The position numbers and the translations under genes were made by a program. A stretch of 12,815 nucleotides of DNA. It comes from Deltaproteobacteria bacterium (GTDB taxonomy: Bacteria; Desulfobacterota; DSM-4660; Desulfatiglandales; Desulfatiglandaceae). The stretch is taken from contig JAFCZI010000031.1 of assembly GCA_019314425.1 (NCBI GenBank), positions 1-12,815 on the forward strand, given 5' to 3'. Each line of letters starts with the position of its first letter. Position 1 is the stretch's first letter. Shown piece by piece: positions 2,780 through 9,738 of this stretch. The notes below the pieces were generated by a model, which was given only the letters and a program-made list of their open reading frames with translations, had not been told where the DNA came from and searched no databases.

Positions 2780-2889
2780 GTAAATATTCGGCCAGAACCC
2801 CATCTTCGCCTATTTTGGCCTGATCACATAGCATTAGTATGCTACGCAGTCCCAAATAGACGAATATGAAGCACTGGCCGAATATTTAC
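2780..2889. repeat. 110-bp imperfect palindrome
   Basis: The outer 16 bases of each arm are perfectly complementary: GTAAATATTCGGCCAG at 2780-2795 pairs with 2874-2889. The arms stay alignable, with mismatches and a small gap, to the tip TAGCAT-TAGT-ATGCTA (2829-2844). The left arm recurs at 5180-5223 with 41 of 44 identical bases. The right arm contains the ATG of the transporter stump, so the element sits exactly at the break in that gene. It resembles a MITE-like or REP-like hairpin element or the fused ends of an excised insertion; no target duplication was found. Confidence 0.75.
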
Positions 2890-3168
2890 GGGTATGGTTT
2901 TTATTTCGGAATTTTCACCGTGTTAATGTTGTTGACCATGATCGATAAATTTGCGAAAGTACCTTTCTTCATCTCATGGTGGGACTATACGTTTCCATTG
3001 AATGCCGTCACCCTGTCTACGGCGCTCATGTACGAATTAACCCATTCCATGTTTTTCAAAGTCCTGGCGGGAATTTTCATGGGGTTTACCATCCTGATCA
3101 TTCTGTTTGTGCTGATCAAAACCGTTCAGGCGGTCAGTCGAGGACGGTTATGCGTTCCGGAAGGATGA
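2866..3168 (+). pseudogene. 3' remnant of a TDT/SLAC1-type anion or tellurite-resistance transporter
   Basis: The 100-residue frame matches the C-terminal part of the TDT (TehA/SLAC1) permease family: a transmembrane helix FYFGIFTVLMLLTMI, the PFFISWWDYTFPLNAVTLS segment typical of the late helices, and a last helix VLAGIFMGFTILIILFVLI. Family members have ten helices and about 320 residues, so roughly two thirds of the gene is missing. The ATG lies inside the 110-bp palindrome, has no ribosome binding site, and is preceded by an in-frame stop (2857-2859). The stop TGA overlaps the downstream HD gene, suggesting the two once formed an operon. It is unlikely to yield a working transporter. The family call is based on the SWW-YTFPL region. 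Confidence 0.7.
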
Positions 3169-4004
3169 ACGTAAATGAATTGCTGCATTATACCGGAGAA
3201 ATGAGATTGAGTGTGGATTTACAGACCTTTCTGCCGGAACTTAAAAACCGGTTTGAACAATATGTCAAGCAGTTTGCTTCTCCAGACCCGGATGTTCAAG
3301 CGGTCCTGGATTTGAAACAGGCCCATACCCGACGGGTCTGTGAGGCCATCCTGGATATCGGGGGGCACGAGGGGCTCTCAGGCGAAGAACTTCGCATGGC
3401 GGAAGCGGCGGCCCTGCTCCACGATATCGGTCGGTTTGAGCAATACCGAAAATATAAAACCTTTTCAGACATACGTTCGGAAAACCATGCCCTTCTCGGC
3501 GTTAAAGTGATCGGGGAAAACAGGATTCTGGAAGGCATTGATCCGGGAAAGGCCAAAGTTATCATTCGCGCGGTGGAATGCCATAACCGGGCGGCTCTCC
3601 CGGTCGGTGAGAATAGTCGAGGTCTGTTATTCATGAAGCTTCTGCGAGACGCGGATAAAGTGGATATCTGGCGGGTGGTGACCGACTATTATCGCAATGC
3701 CCACCGGGAACGAAACCAGACCATTGAATTGAACCTCCCCGATGAGCCCGAAATATCGGATTCGGTCTGCCGATCTCTGATGAAAGGCAATATCGTGCAA
3801 ATGACGGATATCAGGACCCTGAACGATTTCAAGTTGCTTCAGATCGGATGGATCTACGATGTGAACTTTCGCCGCACATTTCAGATTGTGAAAGAGAAAG
3901 GATATCTTGGACAGATTCGAGGAGCGCTTCCCGAAAATTCCATTCGCATAGCGGAAGTTTACGAACGGGCGCTGGCTTTTTTGAACCTGAAGCGGCGTTT
4001 TTAA
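3150..4004 (+). CDS. HD-domain phosphohydrolase-like protein
   Basis: The 284-residue protein has the HD superfamily pattern: H59 (QAHTRRVCEAI), the H91-D92 pair (AALLHDIGRFEQY), H113 and H145 (AVECHN), and D168 in LLRDADKVDIWRVV. These are the expected metal ligands of a phosphohydrolase acting on a nucleotide or phosphoester; the substrate is unknown. No other enzymatic domain or membrane segment is visible. ATG 3150 is preferred because GAGG lies 6 nt upstream (3140-3143). ATG 3165 (MNVNELL) overlaps the transporter stop as ATGA but has an SD-like GGAAGG directly abutting it. The open frame extends to 2976, but that part lies over the transporter stump. It is followed after 27 bp by the UGA-containing thioredoxin-fold gene and is probably cotranscribed with it. 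Confidence 0.82.
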   Translation: MRSGRMNVNELLHYTGEMRLSVDLQTFLPELKNRFEQYVKQFASPDPDVQAVLDLKQAHTRRVCEAILDIGGHEGLSGEELRMAEAAALLHDIGRFEQYRKYKTFSDIRSENHALLGVKVIGENRILEGIDPGKAKVIIRAVECHNRAALPVGENSRGLLFMKLLRDADKVDIWRVVTDYYRNAHRERNQTIELNLPDEPEISDSVCRSLMKGNIVQMTDIRTLNDFKLLQIGWIYDVNFRRTFQIVKEKGYLGQIRGALPENSIRIAEVYERALAFLNLKRRF

Positions 4005-4031
4005 CCCACAAATTGAAAGGAGAAAAAAGAG

Positions 4032-4307
4032 ATGATTGATGTAGAGGTGTTTCACAGCGGCAACCCCGGCTGAAGGAGTTGCCAGGCGGCCATAGGTGTG
4101 GCCGAAAAAATCAAGGAGAAAATGGGGGATGCCATCAACCTGGGCGTTTTTGCCAATGGTTCTATGGAAGCCATGAAATATAAGATCAAGAGCGCCACCA
4201 CTGTTTTCGTAAACGGCGAGCAGCTTTCCCTGGAGACGGCGCTTTCCGCTGAAAAATTGGAGGAATACTTGACCGGATTAACTCAAGACCTTTTTTCACA
4301 GCCGTGA
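4032..4307 (+). CDS. Thioredoxin-fold selenoprotein with UxxC motif (in-frame UGA at 4071-4073)
   Basis: Starting from ATG 4032, with AGGAG 9 nt upstream (4018-4022), the frame reads MIDVEVFHSGNPG, then UGA, then RSCQAAIGVAEKIKEKM, and continues open to TGA 4305-4307. Decoding UGA as selenocysteine gives a 91-residue protein with Sec14-Arg-Ser-Cys17, replacing a CxxC redox motif exactly where it should lie, between the first strand and first helix of a thioredoxin fold. The later part (ATTVFVNGEQLSLETALSAEKLEEYL) fits the last strands and helix of small glutaredoxin/thioredoxin-like proteins. A 6-bp hairpin with loop UAGGUG starts 13 nt after the UGA, as expected for a bacterial SECIS. A standard gene caller would report only the part from GTG 4098. 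The alternative is a nonsense mutation at a Cys codon, but the absence of other damage argues against it. The physiological role is unknown. Confidence 0.8.
4087..4104 (+). promoter_or_regulatory. SECIS-like hairpin after UGA 4071-4073
   Basis: CGGCCA-UAGGUG-UGGCCG: a perfect 6-bp stem with a 6-nt loop. The loop begins 19 nt after the UGA and contains G-G-U, the feature SelB recognises in E. coli fdhF (loop AGGUCU). Distance and loop fit bacterial SECIS elements. Confidence 0.7.
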
Positions 4308-5072
4308 AGCCCGATCGGGCGGGAAATCCCCCGGATTCCTCTCTACACGGGCCCCAGCCCCTATGTGCTGGGGCAGGAGGGCCGCACGGATCTGGGCAAA
4401 CGGAAACTGATCAACAATTTCTGAATATCCCCCATCTCCAACTGGTGCAGGTGTACCAGCTGCCACCCGGGTTACGGATGGAAAGACGAAAATTTTGATT
4501 TTACGGATGCCACGCGCGTTGACTGCCTGGTCTGCCATGATGCCACAGGCACATACACTAAAACACCCGCAGGCTGCGGACGTGAAAAGCAAGGTCTCGA
4601 CCTGACGACAATCACGCAGCAGGTGGGGCTTCCCACCCGCGCCAATTGCGGGTCGTGCCACTGGTGTGGCGGTGGCGGGGATGCCATCAAGCACGGAGAT
4701 CTGGACAGCACCCTGAAACATCCGACGGCCTTGCAGGATGTTCATATGGGTGGCCAGGATTTCACCTGCCAGGAATGCCATACGACCACTAAACACAAAA
4801 TTTCGGGTGTCAGTAATACCGCCGCCGTCAGCGAGGGGCGTGTCTCCTGTACGGACTGTCATTGCGATACCATCGCGTGTCAGACCTGCCATATTCCCAC
4901 CTTTGCCAGGAACAAGCCGACCCTCATGTTCTGGGACTGGTCCAAGGCGGGAAGGGCCGTTGAACTGTCGCCGAAGGATCCCTACTGCATCACCACCCAT
5001 AGCAAGAAAAAGGGTGTTCTCATCAAACGACAGAACGTTCAGCCGGTTTACGCCTGGAACAACTTTTTGTAA
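4308..5072 (+). pseudogene. Internal fragment of an octaheme tetrathionate-reductase-family cytochrome c, with an in-frame UGA
   Basis: A single frame reads IPLYTGPSPYVLGQEGRTD, then GKRKLINNF, UGA (4422-4424), ISPISNW and six CxxCH heme sites: CTSCH, CLVCH, CGSCH, CQECH, CTDCH and CQTCH. Flanking signatures (GYGWKDENFDFTD, GGGGDAIKHGDLDS, NVQPVYAW) match the octaheme OTR family of periplasmic multiheme cytochromes that reduce tetrathionate, nitrite or related compounds. The N-terminus (signal peptide and about two hemes) and the C-terminus after NVQPVYAWNN are missing, so the fragment cannot be exported or fold fully. The UGA stands where I recall family members having Cys (NNFCI), and it is followed by a hairpin like that of the upstream selenoprotein. 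No start codon precedes it: the frame continues directly from the stop of the selenoprotein gene. The 3' break coincides with transposase sequence. Confidence 0.8.
4442..4459 (+). promoter_or_regulatory. Second SECIS-like hairpin after UGA 4422-4424
   Basis: CUGGUG-CAGGUG-UACCAG: five Watson-Crick pairs plus one G-U, and a 6-nt loop differing from the 4087-4104 loop at one base. It starts 17 nt after the UGA. It lies in coding sequence of a truncated gene, so it may be chance or a relic. Confidence 0.4.
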
Positions 5073-5226
5073 GCGGTCTTGATGGTGGCTTTTGGTTCGT
5101 CATTGGATAAAAGGGGGTTATGAAATCTTTCGGGGTATACTGACTGCCCTGATCTGTGTTGAATATTTCAGGTTTCGATGGTAAATATTCGGCCAGCACT
5201 CCATCTTCGTCTATTTTGGCCTGCAT
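5073..5226 (-). pseudogene. Fragment of an IS3-family transposase
   Basis: On the minus strand the frame reads SKPEIFNTDQGSQYTPKDFI, the block around the second catalytic Asp of the rve/DDE integrase core of IS3-family OrfB transposases. Upstream residues (QAKIDEDGVLAEYLP) are encoded by the repeat arm at 5180-5223, not by normal transposase sequence. After KDFI the frame runs into unrelated residues and covers the broken 3' end of the cytochrome gene. Only about 20 recognisable residues remain, so this is a relic, probably of the event that truncated the cytochrome. Confidence 0.65.
5180..5223 (-). repeat. Third copy of the palindrome arm
   Basis: It matches 2779-2822 at 41 of 44 positions in the same orientation, and shares the 16-base core with the opposite arm at 2874-2889. 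No matching right arm follows here. It borders the IS3 transposase scrap, linking the repeat to insertion or deletion events in this region. Confidence 0.8.
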
Positions 5227-5312
5227 TGGATATTTCGAGGATTAAAATTTTAGATTAACGCAGAGATCGGGCAAAAGGGGGCGTTTTGAAACTGGCTCTT
5301 TGGTTAGGATTA

Positions 5313-6683
5313 TCAGCGGTGCTTCTCCCGAACTTGGGAGACCAGCTGTTTCAAACGGGGGATCTGGCGTTTCTGGGTGCTATCCCAGCAAGGGAGGAGC
5401 GAATTGTTATGAAACAAGGGCTCCGATGAAAGGTCAAACATTGAGGTGTCTACCGCTTTTTCCCAGAGCTGGGTGTGGGGAATAGGAGAATATTCTGCAA
5501 GGTAGGGGATGGCGCCGCAGCGATCCGCATGATGGATGGTTTCGGCCACGGCATCCGGAGATTGCCCCGGCAGTCCCATCATGATGTAAGCGCCGATCTG
5601 CCCGGGATGAAAACCGGCACCTCTCAGGTGCTCCATGGCACGGGAAAAATCGCCTTTTGATATTTTTTTGTCCAGGTCCCAGCGTTTGCCGCTGTCTGAC
5701 GCCTCCAGACCCAGTCGAATGGTTTGAAACCCGGTTTGGTGAAGAAGCCTGGCGATGGGTTTCGTGATTTCTCTGACATGAATGGCATTCGGGGTGTGAA
5801 ATCTGAGATCAAGATTGAAGCGGGCGACACGGTCCAGGAGTACCTCCGTGTGGGTATTGGATGACACCAGCAATGCGTCGTCGTAAAAAGCAAAATCCCG
5901 AATGTCCCATTTTCTGTGCCAGAAAAGGATTTCTGCCAGAATTTCATCCGGGTCGGTCTGAATGAATTCGGGAAAAAGGAAGTGGCTGGCGCAGTAATGG
6001 CACCGGTAGGGACAACCGGTAGATGTCATGAGACAGATGTAATGATTTTTTCGCAACAGGTCAAAGGCGGGATAATGGGGTTTGGTTTCATCCGGCACTT
6101 CACCGGGAATGGAAATCCCGAGATTTTCCAGGGTGTCATATATGGCGGGAATGCCCCGGGCTGAAACCACCCGATCGGCGTTTGAATATCGGATGGCGTG
6201 GTCCCGGCATAGCCTGGCATAACCGCCGCCTAAAATGACCGGGACCTCCGGGTGTATTTTCCGAGTGCGCCGGATCGCCTCAAAAACACCGGGATACCAG
6301 TAGGTCATAAGGGACGTCACCAGGATGGCCGAAGGGTTTTTGATTCGCCTTACGGCTTCCTCAAAGATCTCCGGTAAAAGCCCGTAGCGGCTGTAGGGCC
6401 GATCGGTTCCTTCAAGGGCGGTGGGTTTCGAGATGATTTGACGCCAGAATTTCCCGGTGCCGTATTGCCGCCTCTTGGGGGACTTGAGCGTTGAATGCTC
6501 GATCATCGCGGGGTGGTCCACATCCATGCAGTCGATGAAATGGATGTCAAACCCCTTCCGCCTGAGATCTGTTGCCAGTGACAGAAGTCCCAGGGGTTTA
6601 CTCCAGAGATCGTAGGCGGCAAAATCGTAAATCCAGGGGTTGATGAGAATCAGTGACGGTTTCATGGAAAATCGCAAACCCAT
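5313..6683 (-). CDS. B12-binding-domain-type radical SAM protein
   Basis: The 456-residue protein has an N-terminal cobalamin-binding-like Rossmann region (SLILINPWIYDFAAYDLWSK, then PVILGGGYARL) and a radical SAM core from about residue 215 with C224-X3-C228-X2-C231 (STGCPYRCHYC), which binds the [4Fe-4S] cluster. Later segments (FYDDALLV, IRLGLEASDSGKRW, YIMMGLPGQSPD) are typical of the B12-binding/radical SAM group that includes methyltransferases and ring-forming enzymes. The substrate cannot be told. The cobalamin motif DxHxxG is not evident, so B12 may not be bound. Start is uncertain: ATG 6683 gives the longest frame, while ATG 6665 (MKPSLILINPW) is the more usual beginning; neither has a strong ribosome site. 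It lies about 100 bp after the 48-residue gene and may be the last gene of the EF-G operon. Confidence 0.85.
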   Translation of the reverse strand: MGLRFSMKPSLILINPWIYDFAAYDLWSKPLGLLSLATDLRRKGFDIHFIDCMDVDHPAMIEHSTLKSPKRRQYGTGKFWRQIISKPTALEGTDRPYSRYGLLPEIFEEAVRRIKNPSAILVTSLMTYWYPGVFEAIRRTRKIHPEVPVILGGGYARLCRDHAIRYSNADRVVSARGIPAIYDTLENLGISIPGEVPDETKPHYPAFDLLRKNHYICLMTSTGCPYRCHYCASHFLFPEFIQTDPDEILAEILFWHRKWDIRDFAFYDDALLVSSNTHTEVLLDRVARFNLDLRFHTPNAIHVREITKPIARLLHQTGFQTIRLGLEASDSGKRWDLDKKISKGDFSRAMEHLRGAGFHPGQIGAYIMMGLPGQSPDAVAETIHHADRCGAIPYLAEYSPIPHTQLWEKAVDTSMFDLSSEPLFHNNSLLPCWDSTQKRQIPRLKQLVSQVREKHR

Positions 6684-6784
6684 TTCTAGCTTTTGTTTAG
6701 ACCCTTATCAGCTGGTTTTCTGTCACAAAAAACAAGAAGTTCATTGACTGAAAAACCTAAAATTCAAAACTGCTGCTTTCCGCT

Positions 6785-6955: not shown

Positions 6956-7651
6956 TTAATCCAAAGCCAGGAAAGTGTTGGGGTCCAGCTTTACGCTGAT
7001 GTTGGAATCGCCTGGTTTGTCATGGTCTTTGAGCAACCGCAGAAAAATGCCGGATGGCTCGGGGACCAGCTGGATAATGATGCTCAACTGATCATCAATG
7101 TCAGCACACGGGTGGGGAATACCCCGTTCGTTGGTTTCGGTAATGTGACGGTGGGAAAGTGCTGATAACCATATATCCGCTCCGAAATTCCGACCCATTT
7201 TTCTAAGGCCTTCAAGCATATCTCTCCCTGTTTTTTCAAAATCAAGGCCGTCAATAATGACGGTGTTAGGCCTGAAATCCAACCGATCGGCCAGGTTTTT
7301 CAGGTTGGCTTCCAGACGACCCAGCTCAAAACTCTGATTCAGGTAGGCCAGGATCATACGATTCCGATCGATGCGCATGCGGTGCTCGTCATTATCCGGC
7401 AGGTTCAGGGCTTTTAACAGATCGTAATAGATGACATTATAATAAGCGGTTACTTTTTCGGGACCTTCTTCAAGAGAAACATGGATCAGCTTTTCCCCCC
7501 GGAAGATTCTGTCCAATGCGATATGAATCAGACAGGCGGTTTTTCCGACGCCTGCGCGCGCAATCAAAACCCCCAGATTTCCCGGCCCCAGGCCCCGGCG
7601 TGATGATTGCTCAAGAATTTTTAGCGGGCTGACGGATATGAAATCTTTCAC
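6956..7651 (-). CDS. RecA/KaiC-like P-loop ATPase
   Basis: The 231-residue protein has Walker [10 protein letters not shown] (31-39), a [10 protein letters not shown] segment with a catalytic-type Glu pair as in KaiC/RadA-like ATPases (near 58-67), and Walker [12 protein letters not shown] (129-139), followed by a [14 protein letters not shown] sensor-like motif. It is a single RecA-fold domain with no DNA-binding or kinase domain attached. It starts with GTG inside the EF-G stop (GTGA overlap), with GGAGG 9 nt upstream, so it should be translationally coupled to EF-G. Function is unknown; the coupling suggests a role linked to translation or stress signalling, but that is inference. Confidence 0.8.
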
Positions 7652-9738
7652 GATTTCCCACCTCCTTTTGAGTTTTTCTTTGCGTTTATGATGAGCTCTT
7701 CTGAAAGGGATTCGGGAAGCCTGGTGTATTTGGAAAATTCCATGGTGAATTCTGCCTTTCCCTGGGTCAGAGACCTGAGGGTTGTTGCGTAACCGAACAT
7801 TTCAGCCAGGGGGACTTCCGCTTCTGTGGTGGAGTCAGCGCCGTCTTCCGTGTTGCTGAGGATAATCCCGCGCCGCTGGTTAATGGAAGCCATCACGTTG
7901 CCTTGAAACTCGGATGGGCCTTCCACTGAGACCTTCATAATGGGTTCTAAAACCACGGGCTTTGCTTTCATGTAAGCCTGTCTGAAGGCGCCCATGGCAG
8001 CTTGGGAAAAGGCCATCTCAGAGGAATCCACGCTGTGGCTTTTTCCGTCGTTAACGGTGATGGACATTCCCAGCACCGGAAACCCGATGAGTTTCCCTTT
8101 GATTAGGCAGGATTGGAATCCCTTGTCCACGGCGGAAATGTATTCGGTGGGGATGGACCCACCCTTGATGGCGTTTATAAATTCGTATTCACCCTCCTCG
8201 GAGGGTTCCATGAATCCCGCAACACGTCCGAACTGTCCTGAACCACCCGTCTGTTTTTTGTGAATGTAATCGAAAGGTGCATGGCATGTGATGGCTTCCC
8301 GGTAGGCTACTTGGGGCATGCCGGTTACCACGTTGGCCTGGAATTCCCGTTTCATCCTTTCCACATAGACTTCCAGATGAAGTTCCCCCATTCCGGAGAT
8401 AATGGTTTCCTTCGATTCAGGATCCACATGGGACCGAAACGTGGGGTCTTCTCTGGTGAAGCGGCCCAGGGCCTTGCTCATGTTGTTCTGGCTCTTGTTG
8501 TCTTCGGGGGTGATGGTAAGCGATATGACCGGCTCCGGAACAAACATGGAACTCATGCTGACGTTCATTTTGCCGTCGGTAAAGGTGTCTCCGGACGAGC
8601 ATTCAACTCCGAAGAGGGCCACAATATCGCCGGCACGGGCCGACGCGCGATCCTCCATCTGATTCGCGTGCATCCGAACCAGACGTCCCACCTTGATCTT
8701 CCGGCCGGTCCGGGTAATCACCAGATCATCGCCTTTTTTAACGGCGCCCTGGTAGACCCTGAGATAAGTCAACTGACCATAAGGGGTCACTTCCAGTTTG
8801 AAGGCAATGGCAACCAGGGGCTTTTCGGGGTCGGTTTCAAGGGTCACCTCTTCCTCATCCCGGTCGAGATCAAGGGCCGTATTGGTAATGTCCGCCGGAT
8901 CGGGAAGATACCGGTTGATGGCGTCCAGCACGGTTTGAACCCCGATATTTTTGTAAGCGCTTCCCATAAAGACCGGGACCAGCAGTCGCGAGATGGTTCC
9001 CTTCCGCACCGCTTCAAAAATCAATTCTTCGGTGACCGCCTCTTCAAATATGGCCTCCATCAATTCATCTGAAAACATTGAGACGGCATCCAGCAATTCT
9101 TCTCTTCGGGCCAGCGCTTCTTCCATGAGGTGATCCGGAATATCATCTACCCTGATCTTTTCCCCGTTCGGGCCTTCAAAGTAAAGGGCCTTCATGGCAA
9201 CCAGATCCACCACACCTTCGAAATTGGATTCCAGCCCGATGGGGATCTGCATGAGAACGGCGTTCAGACTCAGTTTCTCGTGAAGCTGGCCCACCACCTT
9301 ATAAGGGTCTGCCCCGGACCGGTCGCACTTGTTGATAAACGCGATTCGAGGGACTTCGTATCGCTTCATCTGCCGGTCCACGGTGATGGATTGGGACTGA
9401 ACCCCGCCCACGGAACACAAGATGAGGATGGCGCCGTCCATGACCCTTAAAGCCCGCTCCACCTCAATGGTGAAATCCACATGGCCGGGGGTGTCGATGA
9501 TATTGATTTTGTGCCCCTTCCATTCACAATGGGTGGCGGCGGACGCGATGGTGATGCCCCGCTCTCGTTCCAGTTCCATGGAGTCCATGGTCGCACCCAC
9601 ACCGTCTTTTCCTTTGACTTCATGTATGGCAAAGATTCGATCGGTGTAAAACAGAATTCTTTCGGTCAGGGTGGTTTTCCCGGAATCAATGTGGGCACTG
9701 ATGCCGATATTTCTTAAATTTTTAATCTCATTTTTCAT
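7648..9738 (-). CDS. fusA: Translation elongation factor G, mtEFG1/spdEFG1 type
   Basis: The 696-residue protein is full length. GTPase motifs are G1 AHIDSGKT (15-22), G2 RGITI (60-64), G3 DTPGH (82-86) and G4 NKCD (136-139). Domains II to V follow, including the domain IV loop region [14 protein letters not shown] and the domain V segment with [23 protein letters not shown] catalyses ribosomal translocation in the cytoplasm. Features such as AHIDSGKTT instead of [33 protein letters not shown] and [15 protein letters not shown] are those I associate with the mitochondrial-EFG1-like EF-G of spirochaetes, planctomycetes and deltaproteobacteria, where it handles translocation and a second EF-G handles recycling. 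It is not next to rpsL, rpsG or tuf, consistent with that class. The start ATG 9738 has no strong ribosome site. Confidence 0.93.

Follow-up and report, generated by a model that had tools for sequence, protein, structure and literature searches.

The window, a stretch of 12,815 nucleotides from a Deltaproteobacteria MAG, very probably carries a real selenoprotein gene, tsoX, at positions 4032-4307 of the plus strand, with a thioredoxin-like redox carrier as its predicted product. Compared across related loci, the case for this putative selenoprotein rests on the conserved position of an in-frame UGA, a conserved hairpin, and selenocysteine (Sec) machinery in the genome. The gene has ninety-one codons when the UGA is read as Sec, from the ATG at 4032 to a TGA stop at 4305-4307. 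An earlier, sequence-only reading of this DNA had pointed to a ribosome site, an ATG at 4032, and a single in-frame UGA (4071-4073). All are there, the Shine-Dalgarno-like AGGAG lying at 4018-4022, 9 nt before the ATG. The Cys that it placed three codons past the UGA is encoded by the TGC at 4080-4082, making Sec14 and Cys17 the ends of a U-R-S-C pair. It had also put an HD-domain gene 27 bp upstream, and the stop of that gene does end at 4004 (3180-4004, plus strand, start approximate; Pfam HD 33.8 bits, cut-off 22).

We scanned both strands mechanically for frames with an ATG and a ribosome-site-like motif, at least 80 codons when read through a single UGA, a Cys three codons past it, and a 6-bp hairpin 8-20 nt downstream of it. 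Under these criteria, all of them chosen after the feature was known, the window holds two read-through frames, and the Cys and hairpin occur only in 4032-4307.

The window protein scores 108.5 bits (cut-off 52; profile 3-81 over 2-80 of 82) against the NCBIfam family NF045809, 'HSGNPxU motif (seleno)protein TsoX'. It bears HSGNPGURSC, i.e. the HSGNPxU motif plus UxxC. None of fourteen control genomes matched NF045809. The table of a 2026 review (PMC13188914) includes TsoX with the motif UxxC and credits it to Haft and Tolstoy (2025, mSystems e0141724). Judged by family names in titles and the beginnings of abstracts, no other publication on the family was evident among the best matches. The window tsoX is a further member of an already catalogued selenoprotein family, and the sequence-only reading identified it correctly. 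Its word 'overlooked' applies to this gene model and not to the family, which already stands as NF045809.

Gene calling starts the product at 4098, as had been predicted, and the resulting database entry (P0002) has 69 residues. A collection of some 5.8 billion proteins returned twenty-two relatives, this 69-residue version included, and all of them begin past the UGA. The Pfam label on the shortened proteins is PF26315; five of them, scanned against a library without PF26315, gave no family over its cut-off. A uniform start past the UGA is also what would be seen if the UGA were a true stop and translation began at the GTG at 4098, yielding the 69-residue protein of the databases. We consider this highly improbable: twenty-three aligned proteins share a conserved stretch ahead of the UGA, in which H8 and G10 are invariant, the UGA and hairpin are themselves conserved, and a product started at 4098 would be without its first strand and its active-site pair.

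Relatives of TsoX were found in six genomes of a first set of sixty-one (the window's own included). A class search of eighty-five genomes gave six over the cut-off, and a phylum search of 395 gave twenty-one, with exactly one UGA in twenty of the twenty-one matches and none in the other. Four further genomes in the phylum search had matches below the cut-off. A plasmid search gave no match. We examined twenty-four tsoX loci. Besides the window they comprise two contigs of public MAGs (L008 from Deltaproteobacteria bacterium AUK313 and L009 from Desulfobacteraceae bacterium UBA2771) and twenty-one stretches of other genomes.

Codon 14 is UGA in 23/24 of these loci and TTA (Leu) in the remaining one, L107 (genome G367), which retains Cys17. 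The sequence-only reading had looked for homologs with Cys or UGA aligned at residue 14; UGA is what was found, and none of the twenty-four loci has Cys there. This leaves a gap in the usual Cys/Sec pair argument within the TsoX family. The protein alignment has twenty-three rows, with L009 omitted as its gene is broken off past about residue 64, and the other twenty-two proteins are 32-80% identical to the window protein. All twenty-two extend upstream of residue 24, as the same reading had asked of homologs, and carry FHSGNPxU or a close variant (FHTGNPAU, VHSGDPNU) that runs up to the UGA or, in one case, to the Leu codon. H8, G10, C17, and A24 are invariant across the twenty-three rows, and M1, F7, S9, N11, and P12 are kept in at least 90% of them.

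These comparisons also bear on whether the gene is simply damaged. Genes near tsoX have decayed (a solute-binding protein, an octaheme cytochrome, and a TDT transporter fragment, all described below), and the tsoX of L009 is itself broken off, as might be expected if a pseudogene or a sequencing error had put a nonsense codon into a Cys gene. We give that explanation almost no credence, with the identical UGA recurring at all but one locus and third codon positions varying most; between the window and L008, 26 of 47 nucleotide differences in tsoX fall at third positions.

The sequence-only reading had also described a 6-bp hairpin 13 nt downstream of the UGA, and this bSECIS-type element is present at 4087-4104 (plus strand). 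Thirteen nt (4074-4086) separate the UGA from CGGCCA (4087-4092), after which come the loop UAGGUG (4093-4098) and UGGCCG (4099-4104). Taken alone the hairpin is weak: when the 42-nt stretch was shuffled 1000 times by mononucleotides, 3.1% of the products folded equally well. The case for it comes instead from its conservation among relatives. In an ungapped 42-nt alignment of all twenty-four tsoX loci (twenty-three distinct rows), 83.3% of the helix cells are paired, compared with 8-42% after shifting one side by 1-3 columns. Covariation supports the hairpin by three of five measures: the percentage paired, the covariation score, and the number of cells changed on both sides (twelve) were each attained in 0/500 shuffles. 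The other two are less striking, with three pairs changed on both sides (attained by 79/500 shuffles) and seven further pair types (59/500). Eight of the twelve double-changed cells belong to one inner pair, which is UA in fourteen rows, CG in seven, and AU in one. This pair links the wobble positions of codons 20 and 23, and its changes are silent, as expected under selection on the RNA. The outermost bases, a CG pair in the window, fail to pair in 18/23 rows, which leaves the inner 5 bp as the conserved core of the hairpin. An Rfam search of window positions 3900-4600 gave no match.

The MAG of the window spans 2.8 Mb at about 80% completeness and 5% contamination. It encodes all four Sec genes that the sequence-only reading had proposed to look for, each over its family cut-off: selC (70.7 bits, cut-off 47), selB (390 bits, cut-off 242), selA (611 bits), and selD (387 bits), which carries one UGA itself. 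Among the fourteen control genomes, tRNA-Sec was over the cut-off in five, selB in two, selA in one, and selD in two, so these cut-offs do discriminate. All twenty-two other genomes checked, each with a tsoX over the cut-off, also had tRNA-Sec over the cut-off. Two findings had been named as fatal to the selenoprotein interpretation, an absence of homologs reaching upstream of residue 24 and a genome lacking selB and selC; neither was made, and from sequence the frame is best read as a putative Sec redox protein. A general reassignment of UGA was considered and rejected, since neighbouring genes stop at UGA (e.g. the thioredoxin gene at 2414-2695) and the Sec machinery is present.

An AlphaFold2 model of TsoX built from the twenty-three-row alignment (pLDDT 85, pTM 0.71) has a strand at residues 2-8 and a helix at 15-34 directly after Sec14. 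Among the fifty PDB matches listed for this model, most were thioredoxins (best E 3.3e-4; TM-score 0.52-0.70 on the model). The thioredoxin-like fold that had been claimed is supported at the level of this prediction: as modelled, TsoX would have a small thioredoxin-like fold with the U-x-x-C pair opening its first long helix. By sequence, the nearest solved chain is the thioredoxin 1fo5 (E 2.8e-4), which we take to be MJ0307. TsoX shares the small thioredoxin fold with the MJ0307 family (TIGR00411) and scores 29 bits against it, but it falls below the cut-off of 92.75, has Sec for the first Cys, and lacks a Pro before T56. It is likewise under the cut-off for Pfam Thioredoxin_3 (19.1 bits, cut-off 24.8), and its active-site pair is UxxC, not the CxxC of thioredoxins. 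In thioredoxins, the strand that faces the active site is preceded by a cis-Pro. In TsoX the residue preceding T56 is Ser or Ala in all twenty-three rows, as read by eye from the alignment. Without the cis-Pro, general thioredoxin activity is not assured, and the substrate range of TsoX may differ. The review's table also holds other small thioredoxin-like selenoproteins (SaoT, HUIPC motif, Sec.1, and Sec.2; PMC13188914), but as families separate from TsoX; the HUIPC model gave the window protein 15.9 bits (cut-off 105).

The gene order thioredoxin, HD gene, tsoX is common to the window and L008. The window copy adjoins the HD-domain gene, unlike family members that lie next to TsoA and TsoR. 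In 8/24 loci, the window not among them, the 1.6 kb upstream of tsoX include a TsoA-like gene, and at least seven of these eight also have a TsoR-like regulator. A gene like TsoY, a SLAC1-family protein, follows tsoX in at least 2/24. These neighbour counts are lower bounds, as several loci have a short flank (154 bases upstream in L107). All eight upstream TsoA-like genes have a UGA at the position of the LULAxC motif. Of the two that were scored with the TsoA model, L017 reached 205 bits (cut-off 170) and L109 102 bits, below it; the TsoR and TsoY copies of L094 are over their respective cut-offs. TsoA was over its cut-off in 10/80 genomes searched and was not found in the window's own genome (80% complete) or in G001 (incomplete). 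With TsoA and TsoR found upstream in only part of the loci, this arrangement is not strictly defining for TsoX. At least four loci (L018, L019, L105, and L108) have a whole or partial methyltransferase gene no more than 1.1 kb from tsoX, that of L019 being partial.

Window positions 2866-3168 correspond to the C-terminal third of a TehA/TDT (SLAC1-superfamily) transporter. The fragment is without its N-terminal part and looks decayed (TIGR00816, 48.9 bits, cut-off 237). We considered it as the TsoY partner and rejected it, since its resemblance to a TsoY is not meaningful (E 0.71).

At one of the twenty-four loci, L109 (G222:C195:1500-12000, about 5089-6312), TsoX continues in frame into a thioredoxin-disulfide reductase, the reductase part of which scores 384 bits against TIGR01292 (cut-off 343). 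In L093 part of a reductase-like sequence, covering 44% of the query, lies upstream of tsoX. Just upstream of the L109 fusion are the TsoA-like gene with its UGA and another reading frame interrupted by a UGA (VGVUPPCA), which is DsrE-like by eye and to which NCBIfam gave no family.

We propose that SelB with Sec-tRNA would decode the UGA at 4071-4073 by means of the hairpin, and that TsoX would then act as a thioredoxin-like thiol/selenol redox carrier. The Sec14 selenolate would attack a disulfide or other oxidised substrate, and Cys17 would resolve the adduct to a selenenylsulfide. Because of the single TsoX-reductase fusion, a flavoenzyme of the thioredoxin-reductase type is the likely candidate for recharging this selenenylsulfide. 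The neighbouring TsoR genes, which are regulators of the ArsR/SmtB type, suggest that TsoX of some relatives may be linked to metal(loid) or reactive-sulfur stress.

The same neighbours could be taken further. If Sec and Cys served as ligands, TsoX would be a selenoprotein for binding or transferring metal(loid)s or selenium or sulfur species and not a disulfide carrier. The TsoR-like and TsoA-like genes upstream in several loci are in keeping with this, as is a neighbour in L101 that resembles part of the metal-binding selenoprotein MbdU (356 bits, under the cut-off of 600). Against it stand the thioredoxin reductase fusion in L109 and the predicted thioredoxin fold of the model, and we think it somewhat unlikely. 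We prefer the redox carrier.

Beyond about 4272 the window is a patchwork of two fragmentary genes, one for a solute-binding protein and one for an octaheme cytochrome. DNA homology between the window tsoX and its relatives stops at 4271-4272. The end of tsoX runs into what is left of a family-5 solute-binding protein gene (4273-4356, plus strand), which matches L009 at 7589-7642 and 7751-7794, within a PF00496 gene. The final residues of the window TsoX and its stop at 4307 seem, from this DNA comparison, to derive from the junction with the decayed gene, a further difference from the family; the L008 protein terminates in '...EGL' and most database relatives in '...KGL'. A second tsoX piece was seen in the same MAG (L021, G000:C389, 515-675, minus strand). 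It is 5'-truncated from about residue 30, follows an unrelated reading frame, has 93% DNA identity over 153 bases, and ends in '...KGL', unlike the window copy.

The octaheme c-type cytochrome remnant (TIGR04315) lies at 4356-5072 on the plus strand and scores 271.7 bits (profile 53-308 of 440), below the cut-off of 375. Its N- and C-terminal parts and eighteen internal residues are missing, and it is most likely non-functional. An in-frame UGA at 4422-4424 (plus strand) aligns with the Cys of NNFC in relatives. In L009 both genes are longer and side by side, the cytochrome (7916-9343) behind a family-5 solute-binding protein gene. For comparison we took twenty other loci, namely eighteen octaheme-family loci from a search of the order plus L008 and L009; L008 had no match and L057 did not cover the UGA position, leaving eighteen. 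The codon there is UGA in six (L009, L047-L051), Cys in nine (L041-L046, L055, L056, L058), and another residue in three (L052, L053, L054). Two more octaheme matches from the order search carry one UGA each (G018, G035) and were counted apart from the eighteen aligned. A Sec octaheme cytochrome is already known in kind, since the review lists the family as a GenBank-annotated selenoprotein (PMC13188914).

A 59-base repeat was also seen at four places in the window's own genome, among the loci examined: at window positions 6704-6762, in L021 (437-495), in L027 (1814-1872), and, over thirty-five bases, in L028 (2362-2396). The copies are 89-95% identical to that of the window. It is possibly a small mobile or regulatory repeat.

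One broader scenario would join these systems. TsoX might be a specialised seleno-thioredoxin served by a thioredoxin reductase of its own (fused to it in G222), and in the lineage of the window it might have left the Tso operon and become tied to a second selenium redox system, made up of a Sec-bearing octaheme cytochrome and its solute-binding protein. A remnant of that pair would survive in the window, and L009 would keep the pair itself, with a full frame behind its own broken tsoX. We regard this scenario as quite doubtful.

Finding tsoX corrects a shortened gene model of the window, and its close relatives in the database, all twenty-two of those returned, are shortened likewise, which hides their active site. 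How TsoX could be recharged can be approached concretely through its fusion with thioredoxin reductase, which may already be in print. The putative Sec that some octaheme cytochromes of the order share at a fixed position is a good biochemical target.
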